Positions 3,304-33,552 of a DNA stretch of 64,000 nucleotides are shown one piece after another; positions within the stretch are counted from its first letter, which is position 1; each line of letters begins with the position of its first letter. The stretch is from Acidimicrobiia bacterium (GTDB taxonomy: Bacteria > Actinomycetota > Acidimicrobiia > IMCC26256 > PALSA-610): positions 186,001-250,000 of the forward strand of contig DATBAK010000010.1 of the NCBI GenBank assembly GCA_036271555.1. Reading direction: 5' to 3'. The position numbers and the translations under genes were made by a program. The notes under the pieces were generated by a model, which saw only the letters and a program-made list of their open reading frames with translations, was not told the origin of the DNA and did not search any database.

Positions 3304-4397
3304 GACTGCGCCAGCTCGCGCGCCTTCTTCGTCAGCGTGTCGAGCGCGTCGTGGAAGCTGGCGGAGAAGGAGGCGACGCCTTCGCGCTCGAGCGTGTCGG
3401 TGACGTCGTCGAAGTCGACACCCGCGCTCGCGAGCGCGTCGATGGTCGCCTGCGCGTCGTCGACGCCCTCGGTGACCGTGCCCGCCCGTAGGCCCTCGTG
3501 GTCCTGCAGCGCGTCGATCGACGCCTGGGCAAGCGTGTTGACGGTGTGCGGGCCGATGAGCTCGTCGACGTAGAGCGTGGGGGAGTAGGCAGGGTTCTTC
3601 GTCGACGTCGATGCCCACAGCGGACGTTGCACTCGCGCGCCCTTCGCGGCGAGCGCGTCCCAGCGCTTCCCGCTGAACGTCTGCTCGAAGAGCCGGTACG
3701 CGAGCTTCGCGTTCGCGACCGCGGCCTTGCCCCGCAGCTCGTGCCCTTCCGGCAGCCGGCGGTCGGTCTCGGTGTCGACGCGGCTCACGAAGAACGACGC
3801 CACGCTGTTCACCTTCGAGAGGTCGCCGCCCTTCGCCGCGAGCTGTTCGAGACCCGCGAGGTACGCCTCGATCACTTCGCCGTGGCGCTTCAGGGCAAAG
3901 ATCAAGGTGACGTTCACGTTGATGCCGGCCGCGATCGTCTCGGTGATCCCGGGCAGGCACTCACGCGTGCCGGGGATCTTGATCATCACGTTCGGGCGGT
4001 CGACGCGCGAGAAGAGCTCGGCCGCCTGCGTCACCGTGTCCTTGGCGTTGTGCGCGTAATCCGGGTCGACCTCGACCGACACGAAGCCATCGGCACCGTC
4101 GTTCGCGTCGTAGACCGGCCGCAGCAGATCCGCGGCGTCGCGGATGTCGGTGGTGACGAGCTCCCAGTACGAATCCTTCGCCTCGGTGCCGGACTTCGCC
4201 AGCTTCGCGAGCTGCGCGTCGTAGTCGTCGCCCGCGGCGAGCGCCTTCTCGTAGATCGTCGGGTTCGACGTGACGCCACGGATGCCGTCGCGCTCCATCA
4301 GCAGCTTCAGGCCGCCGGTGGCGTACGCGCGGGTGAGGTTGTCGTACCAGGGGCTCTGCCCGAACTCGGGCAGCTTCGCGATGGAACTGTGCTTCAT
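3300..4397 (-). CDS. tal: Transaldolase
   Basis: Transfers dihydroxyacetone between sedoheptulose-7-phosphate and glyceraldehyde-3-phosphate in the non-oxidative pentose-phosphate pathway. The 365-residue product has GVTSNPTIYEKA near residues 41-52 and the Schiff-base Lys at about 140 in VMIKIPGT; length and motifs fit the actinobacterial TalB-like group. ATG 4397 is supported by GGGAGG 10 nt upstream. This ribosome site lies inside the 86-bp repeat that separates tal from tkt, and the start overlaps the stop of the repeat's mini-ORF (ATGA). The next gene, DUF427, is in turn coupled by ATGA. Confident on all points except how the repeat affects expression. Confidence 0.97.
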   Translation of the reverse strand: MKHSSIAKLPEFGQSPWYDNLTRAYATGGLKLLMERDGIRGVTSNPTIYEKALAAGDDYDAQLAKLAKSGTEAKDSYWELVTTDIRDAADLLRPVYDANDGADGFVSVEVDPDYAHNAKDTVTQAAELFSRVDRPNVMIKIPGTRECLPGITETIAAGINVNVTLIFALKRHGEVIEAYLAGLEQLAAKGGDLSKVNSVASFFVSRVDTETDRRLPEGHELRGKAAVANAKLAYRLFEQTFSGKRWDALAAKGARVQRPLWASTSTKNPAYSPTLYVDELIGPHTVNTLAQASIDALQDHEGLRAGTVTEGVDDAQATIDALASAGVDFDDVTDTLEREGVASFSASFHDALDTLTKKARELAQS

Positions 4398-4483
4398 GCG
4401 GCTACGACCTCCCGCGCTCGATCCTGACGGTGAGCGGTCTCGCGTCGCCGGCCGCGCCTGCGGTCTGCGCCTGGCTGCTTCAT
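4398..4483 (-). repeat. 86-bp ATGA cassette repeat, copy 2 (tal-proximal)
   Basis: Read on the minus strand, a 29-codon mini-ORF runs from ATG 4483 to a TGA at 4396-4394, and that TGA overlaps the tal ATG (ATGA). Its own ATG overlaps the stop of the mini-ORF in copy 1. Between the two ATGs there are exactly 86 bp. It differs from copy 1 by about two bases over the shared 80. The distal end holds GGGAGG 10 nt before the tal start. The predicted peptide is rich in Arg (ADRRRGRRRETAHRQ) and may or may not be functional. Confidence 0.85.
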
Positions 4484-4564
4484 GCGGCTACGACCTCCCG
4501 CGCTCGATCCTGACGGTGAGCGGTCTCGCGTCGCTGACCGCGCCTGCGGTCTGCGCCTGGCTGA
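4484..4564 (-). repeat. 86-bp ATGA cassette repeat, copy 1 (tkt-proximal)
   Basis: Tandem copy of the repeat at 4398-4483. Its mini-ORF of 32 codons runs from ATG 4578, which overlaps the tkt stop as ATGA, to the TGA at 4482-4480, which overlaps the ATG of copy 2. The whole tkt to tal gap is therefore a chain of three stop/start overlaps. The first six codons (MSPTNQ) lie outside the repeat and look like the original tkt flank. Confidence 0.85.
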
Positions 4565-4574
4565 TTGGTGGGAC

Positions 4575-26189: not shown

Positions 26190-27677
26190 GTGGCGGTTCC
26201 GAAGATCTGCGGGATCGAGACCGAGTACGGCGTCGCGTTGCGCGGCGCGGCCGATCCGAACCCCGTGCTCGCATCGTCGTTCTTGATCAACGGGTACGTC
26301 GAGCAGCGTCGGATCGGCTGGGACTTCGACGACGAGACGCCCGGCCGCGATGCTCGCGGCTACGCCCGCGACGGCGCGCAGCCACCCGAGATCGAGACGC
26401 ACCTCGTGAACGCGGTGCTCACGAACGGCGCCCGCTACTACGTCGACCACGCGCACCCCGAGTACTCCACACCCGAGTGCGCGAACGCGCTCGAGCTCGT
26501 GATGGCCGACAAGGCGGGGGAGCGCGTGCTCGCGCGCTCGATGACCGCGGCCCGCCACCTGCTGCCGGCGGGGCAGGAGATCGTCGTCTACAAGAACAAC
26601 TCCGACGGCAAGGGCAACTCGTACGGCTGCCACGAGAACTACCTCGTCGATCGCACTGCGCCGTTCGCGGTGCTCGTGCGCAACCTCATCCCGTGGTTCG
26701 TCACGCGTCAGGTGTTCACCGGCGCGGGGAAGGTCGGCCGCGAGAACGGCGCCGACCCCGTCGACTTCCAGATCAGCCAGCGCGCCGACTTCTTCGAGGA
26801 AGAGGTCGGGCTCGAGACCACGCTGAAGCGCCCGATCGTCAACACGCGCGACGAGCCGCACGCGGACCCGCAGAAGTATCGCCGGCTGCACGTGATCGTC
26901 GGCGACGCGAACCTCTGCGAGGTCGCGACGTTCCTCAAGGTCGGCACGACCGCGATCGTCCTCGCGATGATCGAGGACGGGTTCGTCGACAAGGACCTCA
27001 CGATTCTCGGACCCGTCCCCGCGATGCGCGCGGTGTCGCACGACCCGACGTGTCGCGCGCTCGTCGAGCTCGCCGACGGCGGTCGTTGCACGGCCATCGA
27101 GTTGCAGTGGGAGTTCCTGCGGCTGGCGCGCAAGTACGCCGACGACGTCGGGCTCGAGCAGTGCGGCGGTGACGCGCTCGGCGGTCAGGTGCTCGATCGG
27201 TGGGAGGCGACGCTGAGCGCGCTCGAGCGCGATCCCGCGTTGCTCGACGGTCAGCTCGACTGGGTCACGAAGCAGCAGTTGCTGCGCGCGTACGCAGCGC
27301 GCGACGACCTGCACTGGGACGATCCGAAGCTGAGCCTGCTCGATCTGCAGTACCACGACGTACGTCCCGAACGGTCGCTGTACGAACGCCTCGTGCGCGC
27401 AGGGAAGATCGAACGCCTGGTCACGGAGTCGGAAGTGATCGCGGCGATGGCCGATCCGCCGGCGACGACCCGGGCGTACTTCCGCGGCACCTGCCTGCGA
27501 CGGTGGCCCGATTCGGTCGTCGCCGCGAACTGGGACAGCCTCATCCTCGACGTAGGCTCCGATCCGCTCCGGAGGATCCCCATGATGGAGCCCACGCGTG
27601 GTACGAAAGAGCACGTCGAGAAATTGTTCGCCGAATGCGCGCTGCCTGCCGATCTAATAGCACGGCTGGCGTCGTAG
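26190..27677 (+). CDS. dop: Pup deamidase/depupylase
   Basis: Converts the C-terminal Gln of Pup to Glu and also removes Pup from substrates. The 495-residue protein belongs to the carboxylate-amine ligase fold shared with PafA. The ATP-site glutamates are in GIETEYG (Glu10, Glu12), and the essential Asp86 is in YYVDHAHPEYSTPEC. The extra segment WDFDDETPGRDARGY (about 44-58) is the Dop-loop that separates Dop from PafA. GTG 26190 is 52 bp after the arc stop. Pup follows after 10 bp, and Pup ends in Gln here, so Dop is needed. Confidence 0.97.
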   Translation: MAVPKICGIETEYGVALRGAADPNPVLASSFLINGYVEQRRIGWDFDDETPGRDARGYARDGAQPPEIETHLVNAVLTNGARYYVDHAHPEYSTPECANALELVMADKAGERVLARSMTAARHLLPAGQEIVVYKNNSDGKGNSYGCHENYLVDRTAPFAVLVRNLIPWFVTRQVFTGAGKVGRENGADPVDFQISQRADFFEEEVGLETTLKRPIVNTRDEPHADPQKYRRLHVIVGDANLCEVATFLKVGTTAIVLAMIEDGFVDKDLTILGPVPAMRAVSHDPTCRALVELADGGRCTAIELQWEFLRLARKYADDVGLEQCGGDALGGQVLDRWEATLSALERDPALLDGQLDWVTKQQLLRAYAARDDLHWDDPKLSLLDLQYHDVRPERSLYERLVRAGKIERLVTESEVIAAMADPPATTRAYFRGTCLRRWPDSVVAANWDSLILDVGSDPLRRIPMMEPTRGTKEHVEKLFAECALPADLIARLAS

Positions 27678-30000: not shown

Positions 30001-31359
30001 GTGGAGAAGCGGATCTTCGGCCTCGAGAACGAGTATGGCGTCACGTGCACGTTGCGCGGCCAACGCCGGCTCAGCCCCGACGAGGTGGCGCGCTACCTGT
30101 TCCGCCGGGTCGTGTCGTGGGGTCGCTCGAGCAACGTGTTCCTCGAGAACGGCGCACGCCTCTACCTCGACGTCGGGAGCCATCCCGAGTACGCCACTCC
30201 GGAGTGCGACTCGATCCACGACCTCGTCGTCCACGACAAGGCGGGCGAGCGCATCCTCGAGAGCCTCGTGCAGAGCGCCGAGCAGCGCCTGCGTGAGGAA
30301 GGCATCCGCGGTGAGGTCTACCTCTTCAAGAACAACACCGATTCCGCGGGCAACTCGTACGGCTGCCACGAGAACTACCTCGTCGAGCGGGACGGTGACT
30401 TCTCGAAGTTCACCGACGTGCTCATCCCGTTCCTCGTGAGCCGCCAGGTCTACGCGGGTGCGGGGAAGGTGCTGCAGACGGCGCGCGGTGCGATGTTCTG
30501 CATCGCGCAGCGCGCGGAGCACATCTGGGAGGGCGTGTCGTCGGCGACGACGCGTTCCCGCCCGATCATCAACACGCGCGACGAGCCGCACGCGGATGCG
30601 GAGCGCTTCCGCCGCCTGCACGTGATCGTCGGCGACTCGAACATGAGCGAGTACTCGACGTTCCTCAAGACCGGCGCGACGTCGATCATGCTGCGCATGC
30701 TCGAGGAGGACGGCGCGCCGTGGCGCGACCTCACGCTCGAGAACCCCATCCGAGCGATCCGCGACATCAGCCACGACATCACCTGCCGCCGGCGCGTGCG
30801 CCTCGCGAACGGGCGCGAGCTCTCGGCCGTCGACATCCAGTCCGAGTACCTCACGCGCGCGCAGCGGTTCGCGAAGCGCCGCGGTCTGCCGCCGCTCGAG
30901 CAGCGCGCGCTCGAGATGTGGGAGCACGTGATGACCCATCTCGAGGACGATCCGTTCAAGCTGAACCGCGAGGTCGACTGGGTCATCAAGCACGAGCTCA
31001 TCGAGGCGTTTCGCGCGCGGCACGACCTGCCGCTGACGCACCCGCGCGTCGCCCTCATCGATCTCTCGTACCACGACGTCTCGCAGGAGCGGTCGCTCTA
31101 TTACATCCTCGAGCACCGCGGCACGGTCGACCGCATGGTCACCGACGAGGAGATCGCCGAAGCCGTCACCACTCCGCCCCAGACGACGCGTGCCCGCCTG
31201 CGCGGCGCGTTCATCCGCCGCGCGAAGGAGCGCAAACGCGACTACACGGTCGACTGGGTCCACTTGAAGCTCAACGATCAGGCGCAGCGCACGGTGCTGT
31301 GCAAGGACCCCTTCAAGTCTCGCGACGATCGCGTCGAGCGCCTCATCGCGAGTCTGTAG
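30001..31359 (+). CDS. pafA: Pup-protein ligase
   Basis: Joins the deamidated Pup C-terminal glutamate to substrate lysines using ATP. The 452-residue protein has Glu9 in FGLENEYG, Asp57 in [16 protein letters not shown] and a C-terminal ligase domain ending near ERLIASL. It is a paralogue of Dop without the Dop-loop. GTG 30001 is given by homology to the usual N-terminus. It is separated from prcA by a gene on the other strand and has its own leader. Confidence 0.97.
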
Positions 31360-31463: not shown

Positions 31464-32555
31464 ATGCCGAGCTTCCACAGCGCGACGGTGGTCTCGATCA
31501 TCGCGGCCCGGGACGGGCTGCAGCGCGTGCTCGTGACGATCGACGGCGACGGGGCGGCCGAACCCGAGCGCGCGTACGTGCTCACGAAGGTGACCGGCGA
31601 CGTCTCGGTGGGGGATCGGGTGATCCTGAACACGACCGCGGTCGAGCTCGGGCTCGGCACCGGCGGCTGGCACGTCGTGCACTGGAACCTCGAGCGCACG
31701 AGCTGGCACGAAGCGGGCGCCGGGCACGTGTTGAAGGCGCGCTACACGAGCATCCAGACCGACGTCGGCAGCACCGAGGAGCACGACGCGCGGCTCGCCG
31801 ACGTCGAATCGATCGACGGCATGCCCGTCGTCGTCGCCGCGCTGCACAGCCAGCTGCCCGCGATCGCGGTCGCGCTGCGCGCGAGCCGTCCCGATCTTCG
31901 GGTCGCGTACGTGATGACCGACGCCGCGGGTCTGCCGCTCGTGATCTCCGATCTCGTCGCTTCACTCGTCGCGCGCGGGCTGCTCGCGGCGACGATCACC
32001 GCGGGCCACGCCTTCGGCGGCGATTACGAAGCGGTGTCGACCTTCTCGGCGCTCGCGATCGCACGCCACGTCGTCGACGCCGACGTGGCGGTCGTCGTCA
32101 TGGGCCCCGGCATCGTCGGCACCGACACCCGCCTCGGCTTCTCCGGCATCGAGCTCGGCTCCGTCCTCGACGCAGTGCACGGGCTCGGCGGGCTGCCGGT
32201 CGCGAGCCTGCGCGCGTCGCTCGCCGACGCGCGCGAGCGCCATCGCGGCGTGTCGCACCACACGCTCACCGCGTTGACGACGGGTTGCCGCTCACGCGTG
32301 CTCGTCGCGCTGCCGGCGGTGGGTGGGGGCGCGGAAGCCCGGCTGCGCAGCGATCTCGCGGCCGCGGGTGTCGACGCGCGCCACGAGATCGTCCCGGTTG
32401 CACCGCCCGACGTGCTCGCGTTGTTCGCGCAACACGGTCTCGACGTGCTCTCGATGGGGCGGCCGGCCGCGGTCGATCCGATCCTCTTCCAGTGCGCCGC
32501 CGCCGCGGGCGCGCTCGCCGCGCAACGGGCGCCGCGGCGCGTGAGCACCGCATGA
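31464..32555 (+). CDS. DUF3866 family protein
   Basis: A 363-residue protein of DUF3866, a family found almost only in Actinobacteria and Firmicutes-type genomes without known function. Motifs include VGDRVILNTTAVELGLGTGGWHVV, HVLKARYT, VVVMGPGIVGTDTRLGFSG and MGRPAAVDP at the end. No membrane segment is present. ATG 31464 is the first start after the repeat. Its stop overlaps the mini-ORF of the third 86-bp cassette (ATGA), which joins it to pafB. Confidence 0.88.
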   Translation: MPSFHSATVVSIIAARDGLQRVLVTIDGDGAAEPERAYVLTKVTGDVSVGDRVILNTTAVELGLGTGGWHVVHWNLERTSWHEAGAGHVLKARYTSIQTDVGSTEEHDARLADVESIDGMPVVVAALHSQLPAIAVALRASRPDLRVAYVMTDAAGLPLVISDLVASLVARGLLAATITAGHAFGGDYEAVSTFSALAIARHVVDADVAVVVMGPGIVGTDTRLGFSGIELGSVLDAVHGLGGLPVASLRASLADARERHRGVSHHTLTALTTGCRSRVLVALPAVGGGAEARLRSDLAAAGVDARHEIVPVAPPDVLALFAQHGLDVLSMGRPAAVDPILFQCAAAAGALAAQRAPRRVSTA

Positions 32556-32637
32556 AGGGCCGGGCGCAGACCGCAGGCGCGGTCGGTCCCGACGCGACGG
32601 CGCCCCGTCTGGATCGAGCGCCGAAGGTCGGAGCCGC
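32552..32637 (+). repeat. 86-bp ATGA cassette repeat, DUF3866-pafB copy
   Basis: A mini-ORF of 29 codons runs from ATG 32552 (overlapping the DUF3866 stop) to TGA 32639-32641 (overlapping the pafB ATG). The spacing between ATGs is 86 bp, identical to the tal copy. Shared blocks are GGCGCAGACCGCAGGCGCGG, GGATCGAGCGC and AGCCGCATGA. The first block is shifted by one base, so the peptide differs although length and openness are kept. GGAG lies 5 nt before the pafB start. Confidence 0.82.
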
Positions 32638-33552
32638 ATGAACGCAGGCCCGAGTCGGGTCGAGCGCATCCTGAACCTGCTCGCCTGCCTCCTCGACACC
32701 GCCCGCCCGTTGACGCGCGACGAGCTCGTCGAGCAGGTCACCGGCTATCCACCCGAGCCGGTCGCGTACCGGCGCGCGTTCGAGCGTGACAAGGAGACGC
32801 TGCGCGCGATGGGCGTACCGCTCGTCGTCGTCAACCTGCCGAGCGGCGAGCAGGGCTACCGCGTCCCGCCGGACGAGTACTTCCTGCCCGACCTCGACCT
32901 GACCGATGAGGAGACGGCCGCGCTGCACGTGGCCGTGAGCGCGGTGCTGCTCGGCAACCGCGCCGGTCAGGGCGCGCTCATGAAGCTCGGCGGCGCGACC
33001 GACGAAGCGAGCGCGCCGATCGGCACGCTGCCGCTCGAGCCCGCGCTGCCGCTGTTGTTCGAGGCGTTCCGCCGCCACTGCCCGGTGACGTTCGAGTACC
33101 GCGGCGACACCCGCACGGTCGAGCCCTGGGGGCTCGCGGCCCGACGCGGGCACTGGTATCTCGTCGGCCACGACCGCACACGCGGCGCGATGCGCACGTT
33201 CCGCGCCGACCGGCTCGGCGACGACATCAGCGTCGGCGAGCCGGAGTCGTTCGTCGTCCCCGACGACTTCTCGCCCGACCAGTCGCTCGACAACGAGCCC
33301 TGGCAGTACGGCGACGACGCGCCCGTGACCGCGCGCGTGCTCGTCGACGCCGGTCACGCCGACGACGTGGTCGCGCGCGCCGATCGCGTCGTCGAGACGC
33401 GCGCCGACGGCTCGGTCGTCGTCGAGCTCGAGGTCGTCAATGTGCCCGCGTTCCGGTCGTTCGTCCTCGGGCTCCTCGACCACGGCGAGGTGCTCGAGCC
33501 GGAAGCGCTGCGCGCCGACCTCCTCGCGTACCTCGGCGAGTTCGCGACATGA
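32638..33552 (+). CDS. pafB: WYL-domain transcription regulator PafB
   Basis: One half of the PafBC activator that controls the mycobacterial LexA-independent DNA-damage response. The 304-residue protein has an N-terminal winged helix (RVERILNLLACLLDTARPLTRDELVEQV) and a WYL sensor domain (about 145-230: FEYRGDTRTVEPWGLAARRGHWYLVGHDRTRGAMRTFRADR), plus a WCX tail. ATG 32638 lies in an ATGA overlap with the repeat mini-ORF. pafC follows by another ATGA overlap. Confidence 0.93.
   Translation: MNAGPSRVERILNLLACLLDTARPLTRDELVEQVTGYPPEPVAYRRAFERDKETLRAMGVPLVVVNLPSGEQGYRVPPDEYFLPDLDLTDEETAALHVAVSAVLLGNRAGQGALMKLGGATDEASAPIGTLPLEPALPLLFEAFRRHCPVTFEYRGDTRTVEPWGLAARRGHWYLVGHDRTRGAMRTFRADRLGDDISVGEPESFVVPDDFSPDQSLDNEPWQYGDDAPVTARVLVDAGHADDVVARADRVVETRADGSVVVELEVVNVPAFRSFVLGLLDHGEVLEPEALRADLLAYLGEFAT

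Follow-up and report, generated by a model that had tools for sequence, protein, structure and literature searches.

The junction between a DUF3866 gene and a pafB-like gene in the window, the 64,000-nt stretch of DNA that was analyzed, carries one copy of a short, dispersed repeat. In our reading, to which we assign a probability of roughly 0.74, this repeat is a mobile element that occupies NTGA overlaps of co-directional genes and is made transparent to translation by a small ORF, a hairpin, and a Shine-Dalgarno region.

The copy at the DUF3866-pafB junction (window positions 32552-32641) has ATGA at both ends and 86 nt from ATG to ATG, in agreement with the original prediction. Its small ORF comprises 29 codons and a stop and reads MKGRAQTAGAVGPDATAPRLDRAPKVGAA*. 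Upstream, the DUF3866 frame (PF12982), open for 500 codons to the edge of the locus, terminates at the TGA at 32553-32555, which belongs to the first ATGA. The second ATGA holds the ATG at 32638, with which the downstream gene for a WYL-domain regulator (PafB-like; PF13280, PF25583) starts. The features of this copy, and the positions of two further copies in the window, are given in Table 1. The junction of the PafB-like gene with the next gene, at 33549-33552, is a plain ATGA overlap without an element, a site of this type that is unoccupied.

Table 1. Features of the element copy at the DUF3866-pafB junction and of the tkt-tal copies, in window coordinates.
Feature	Position	Strand	Basis
Whole element copy, ATGA to ATGA, with a 29-codon small ORF and its stop	32552-32641	+	~60 genomic copies matched by BLAST and covariance model; open frame
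5' ATGA: DUF3866 stop TGA overlapping small-ORF ATG	32552-32555	+	Sequence; DUF3866 Pfam
Helix 1, 5' strand GGC	32563-32565	+	Pairs with 32633-32635; RNAalifold and pair counts
Helix 2, 5' strand GACC	32569-32572	+	Pairs with 32626-32629; covarying GACC:GGTC, GATC:GATC, GAGC:GCTC, GCCC:GGGC
Helix 3, 5' strand GGCGC	32576-32580	+	Pairs with 32618-32622; one position with four Watson-Crick pair types
Loop region of variable, non-conserved sequence, in frame	32585-32610	+	Per-site divergence averaging ~0.5 (arms, ~0.05-0.17)
Helix 3, 3' strand GCGCC	32618-32622	+	RNAalifold, covariation
Purine block GAAGG resembling a Shine-Dalgarno sequence, overlapping helix 2 in part; most copies have GGAGG	32623-32627	+	Anti-SD pairing energies; copy alignment A1
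Helix 2, 3' strand GGTC	32626-32629	+	RNAalifold, covariation
Helix 1, 3' strand GCC	32633-32635	+	RNAalifold, covariation
3' ATGA: small-ORF stop overlapping pafB start; A element-borne	32638-32641	+	A in 54/55 copies although 5' base varies
WYL/WCX-domain transcription regulator (PafB-like), downstream gene	32638-33552	+	Pfam
tkt-tal copy adjoining tal, 5' arm frame-shifted	4394-4483	-	BLAST, alignment, open frame
tkt-tal copy adjoining tkt; tandem with tal-side copy, ATGA shared	4480-4568	-	BLAST, covariance model

Two details of the original prediction changed on inspection. The main block does differ by a one-base shift between the pafB copy and the tkt-tal copies, with compensation in the middle of the element (78 versus 79 nt from the block to the end), but the shifted copies are those at tkt-tal and the pafB copy is the canonical one. 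Similarly, the GGAG proposed as the ribosome site of pafB is present at 32630-32633, but its spacing to the ATG is 4 nt and it falls at one of the most variable positions of the element (position 80 of the copy). A purine block that is better conserved, GGAGG/GAAGG, lies approximately 10 nt 5' of the ATG.

The copy, first counted as the third of its kind, is one of about 60 in the genome. BLAST against the window's own genome returned 45 matches (E 4e-41 to 4e-7), and a covariance model built from 45 copies returned 62 at E <= 1e-3. The repeat is thus far beyond chance, and as the copies share ancestry, their number is not a number of independent events. In large model surveys of metagenome-assembled genomes, run at lowered sensitivity and with rough E-values, eight other genomes of the order contained relatives of the element (E <= 1e-3): 17 copies in G008, 12 in G005, 11 in G010, four in G009, two in G029, and one each in G002, G007, and G018. 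At the same threshold, the model found none in the remaining 49 genomes of the order, and in the class and phylum samples nothing outside the order was among the matches listed. An exact-pattern scan of named genomes yielded matches only in the uncultured Actinomycetota MAGs BP_119, BP_122, RYN_51, and RYN_52, plus one chance match in Rhodopseudomonas (L080), which involved the 3' end only. No viral contig matched the element, and a covariance-model search of Rfam gave no relevant match even at E 5. Tandem arrays occur at C41, C10 (tkt-tal), C62, and C83, and others are found in G005, G008, and G010.

Some copies depart from the common form. Three in G000 (L125, L126, and L128, on C34, C5, and C33) make up a subfamily of 102-105 nt with approximately 12 extra nucleotides (CCGGGCC..CGGCACAGG) in the 3' arm, in frame. 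Three others (L051, L093, and L141, in G008, G007, and G005, respectively) lie approximately 4 kb 5' of pafB, apparently at one shared junction; their loops are unrelated and their arms are kept. The window also contains other inverted repeats of 58-80 bp and 85-88% complementarity (31379-31458/43722-43801 and 29436-29493/31400-31457), which are unrelated to the element and may represent a second repeat family. Finally, two 200-nt stretches 3.7 kb apart (26778-26977 and 30508-30707) are 74% identical and are probably paralogous genes.

The location of the copies is highly regular. In the window's genome, a long upstream ORF ends with its TGA stop at the 5' end of 48 of the 58 distinct copies; at the 3' end of 54, either a long downstream ORF or a further tandem copy begins. 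Most lie at a junction of co-directional genes, with the upstream TGA overlapping the start of the small ORF and the downstream ATG overlapping the small-ORF stop. In 55 copies, the 5' TGA was preceded by A 35 times, by G 16 times, by C three times, and by T once, a few sites thus being CTGA. The base before the 3' TGA was A in 54 of 55. This near-constancy, against the varied 5' base, indicates that the element itself brings the A of the new ATG. Named partly by Pfam domain, the downstream genes are unrelated to one another, and some have housekeeping roles: they encode NuoD, IlvH, MurG-type and Era-type proteins, transaldolase (Tal), cytochrome c assembly proteins, aminotransferases, ABC permeases, dehydrogenases, and others. 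PafB is therefore not special. The proposal that the element supplies the ribosome site of a DNA-damage regulator holds with respect to the strong Shine-Dalgarno region, but pafB is one of many unrelated downstream genes.

Comparison with relatives revealed the empty sites. At nuoC-nuoD, most relatives, from several genera, have a sequence close to ...GACCCGAGCCCGCGATGA... with an uninterrupted ATGA overlap; the filled site in the window's genome reads ...GATCCGAGGCCGCGATGA[GCAGTCAGGCGC...GGAGCCGCATGA]GTAACGAG. Similarly, ilvB-ilvH is a plain GATGA overlap in five relatives and is filled in the window's genome, and tkt-tal is a plain ATGA overlap in G005. These uninterrupted overlaps show that the element is an insertion into a pre-existing ATGA. 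At DUF3866-pafB, relatives without the element show no empty ATGA: a TAG or TAA stop is followed at a short distance by a separate start, so the empty-site argument rests on the other junctions. A target-site duplication beyond the TGA was apparent over all copies and was weak without the tandem copies (position 5, P 0.02). A search for candidate enzymes that covered Y1 tyrosine transposases only (PF01797) found none in the copy-bearing genomes G000, G005, G008, G009, and G010.

What is conserved at the sequence level is a hairpin, which the original prediction had missed. Using a plain MAFFT alignment made without structure, RNAalifold predicted 12 pairs in three helices (GGC:GCC, GACC:GGTC, and GGCGC:GCGCC) with two 3x3 internal loops. 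In alignment A1, both-side changes occurred in eight pairs of the tested structure (0/500 shuffles), and slid controls collapsed. In 106 distinct copies, aligned by fitting to the model, nine of the 12 pairs had both-side changes, 94.8% of cells were paired, and both sides had changed in 77 cells (0/500 shuffles); one pair occurs as GC, CG, AU, and UA. The mismatches comprised 41 G-U versus 15 A-C (P = 0.0007), an excess that is expected if the sense strand, and thus RNA, folds. Single-sequence folding energies of this GC-rich sequence were not clearly lower than those of shuffles (z +0.5 to -1.3), and an alternative fold is possible for the window copy with its flanks. The case for the hairpin therefore rests on covariation, by which the predicted structure is conserved in the element. 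Two other structures were considered and rejected: a local 5'-side hairpin, GACCG/CGGTC, had no covariation, and an H-type pseudoknot was replaced by the nested hairpin, which RNAalifold found independently.

The Shine-Dalgarno block sits in the 3' arm of this hairpin. For starts behind the element, the median anti-SD pairing energy was -9.0 kcal/mol, as compared to -3.2 kcal/mol at 19 overlap candidates in the window (P = 4e-5), a mechanically chosen control set that includes two element-preceded starts and may hold spurious ORFs. At random positions, the value was -2.2 kcal/mol.

These data bear on whether the repeat is instead a purely selfish, MITE-like DNA element, with an inverted repeat that serves as a recombinase or transposase substrate and an open frame that persists only because insertions that were out of frame or carried a stop would be polar and were lost. 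Such an element would account for the many unrelated target genes, the tandem arrays and empty sites, the imperfect terminal inverted repeats, and the patchy distribution within the order. We nevertheless consider it unlikely: compensatory changes in individual dispersed copies, together with the preference for sense-strand G-U over A-C, suggest selection on the transcribed strand, even if single-stranded DNA of the sense strand could in principle also give G-T tolerance, and the strong Shine-Dalgarno region adds to the case against it. The overlap of a conserved, covarying RNA structure with the Shine-Dalgarno region would also suit a riboswitch-like cis-regulatory RNA that senses a metabolite or protein and controls a regulon, but we regard this as highly improbable given the lack of an Rfam match, flanking genes that form no evident pathway, a location at junctions of coupled genes and not at the 5' ends of operons, and the occurrence of tandem arrays and lineage-specific insertions.

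The small ORF is subject to a constraint on its frame. Counted from NTGA through the 3' TGA, 71 of 83 copies have a length that is a multiple of three and no internal stop. Since 12/83 copies have the wrong length modulo 3, and the 5' TGA is missing from some, an intact frame is not an absolute requirement; the constraint on length modulo 3 is strong, not absolute. Among the length variants (not 90 nt) in the window's genome, 13 of 19 are in frame (P = 0.002). Lengths range from 75 to 120 nt, 84 being typical of the sister genus g7. Absolute length, which had been thought to be fixed, is thus not kept, and length modulo 3 is.

The encoded peptide behaves differently. The arms of the canonical copies contain seven synonymous versus 83 non-synonymous changes (expected synonymous share, 0.30), with non-synonymous substitutions at approximately five times their expected frequency, and their third codon positions vary less than the second. 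Moreover, different copies use different frames for the 5' arm; all three occur, each of them open. Based on these three observations, no peptide appears to be selected on the small ORF. The alignment of copies thus bears out the view that coupling and an open frame are kept rather than a peptide: the frame is mostly maintained and the amino acids vary. A real family of 29-residue proteins spread by duplication (consensus MSSQAQTAGAV...RPDRAPEVGAA) is accordingly disfavored, and has very little probability in our estimation, since a shared peptide is recognizable among canonical-frame copies but is set against the ~5-fold non-synonymous excess, second codon positions that vary more than the third, and several copies that use the other two 5'-arm frames (e.g., MKQPGADRRRG... 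and MRARRRPQARS...).

For a mobile repeat that is transparent to translation, we infer the following course of events, including the mechanism of transposition, the re-initiation, the opening of the hairpin by ribosomes, and the net effect on expression. The element would insert at an NTGA stop/start overlap of co-directional, presumably co-transcribed genes and leave the upstream TGA intact. The short open frame would start on the target's own (A/G)TG, and the element-borne ATG(A) at its end would become the new start of the downstream gene. In the mRNA, the folded element would be a long hairpin with imperfect pairing and with the Shine-Dalgarno region in its 3' arm. A ribosome finishing the upstream gene would re-initiate on the small ORF, and translation of the latter would melt the hairpin. 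Upon termination at the overlapping ATGA, the exposed, strong Shine-Dalgarno region would favor initiation of the downstream gene. Because the ribosome would be forwarded through the element, the insertion would be transparent to translation and tolerated in coupled junctions. What would need to be kept is the hairpin together with an uninterrupted frame, and not the peptide. A review of coupling (PMC12548453) covers two general models, RNA unfolding and re-initiation; the anatomy of the element is compatible with both. A further reading, which is possible but doubtful, treats the element as a domesticated yet mobile RNA device. It would then be a bicistronic leader gated by a hairpin, scattered by the lineage over dozens of operons, and would actively reset the ratio at which coupled genes are translated. 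In that case, the stronger Shine-Dalgarno region and the replacement of GTG starts by ATG would mean that transposition rewires protein stoichiometry.

By analogy, the element resembles a MIRU at work outside mycobacteria. MIRUs (Supply et al. 1997) appear to be mobile and insert at start codons, and the MIRU ORF is coupled at -4 nt (PMC12548453); the units are 77 and 53 bp (PMC4213456). Both types are short (about 50-100 bp) repeats dispersed over many operon junctions, the element having 86 bp and ~60 copies. In both, a small ORF overlaps the two flanking ORFs at DTGA (-4 nt), apart from the element's few CTGA sites. Both insert at stop/start sites, mobility of the element being evident from the empty nuoC-nuoD, ilvB-ilvH, and tkt-tal sites. 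Tandem copies occur in the element family as well, and the unit plus 4 is divisible by 3 in each (77 and 53 bp for MIRU; 86 and 80 bp for the element). However, the host of the element belongs to another actinobacterial lineage, the matches in the class and phylum samples are confined to one order, the unit lengths differ, and a covarying hairpin that encloses the Shine-Dalgarno region is shown for the element. We do not file the element as a MIRU because its host is non-mycobacterial and MIRUs were compared by description, not by sequence. Searches of the openly accessible literature turned up no non-mycobacterial equivalent of MIRUs and no earlier description of the element in this host group.

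Rickettsia palindromic elements (RPEs) are palindromic mobile repeats that keep an open frame in unrelated genes (PMC10969869). The element is likewise palindromic, mobile, and open-framed, but an RPE is located within a gene and adds a conserved peptide to the encoded protein, whereas the copies described here carry no conserved peptide and, because they lie between genes, are not RPEs. REP/RAYT and IS200/IS605-derived elements are small hairpin repeats present in many copies at specific short target sequences. The element shares these properties; in contrast, it lies in coupled gene junctions and no Y1 transposase was found in the copy-bearing genomes of the family, and because this test (PF01797) was negative, we do not class it with REP/RAYT. 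Finally, in the bicistronic design leaders of synthetic biology, a short leader ORF, an internal Shine-Dalgarno sequence, and an overlapping stop/start drive the next gene. The element has the same three parts, but these leaders are engineered, immobile, and placed at the start of expression cassettes. Bicistronic design leaders are cited in PMC12548453.

The way of life of MIRUs, as mobile repeats in stop/start overlaps with translation passing through them, would thus also exist outside mycobacteria. The many divergent copies make old proposals testable: a frame kept without a peptide, a selected hairpin around the Shine-Dalgarno region, and a target seen from empty sites. The ~60 copies also provide a natural library of bicistronic leaders for dissecting translational coupling. 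For annotation, they carry a warning: dozens of possible small proteins per genome in this group appear not to be selected as proteins.
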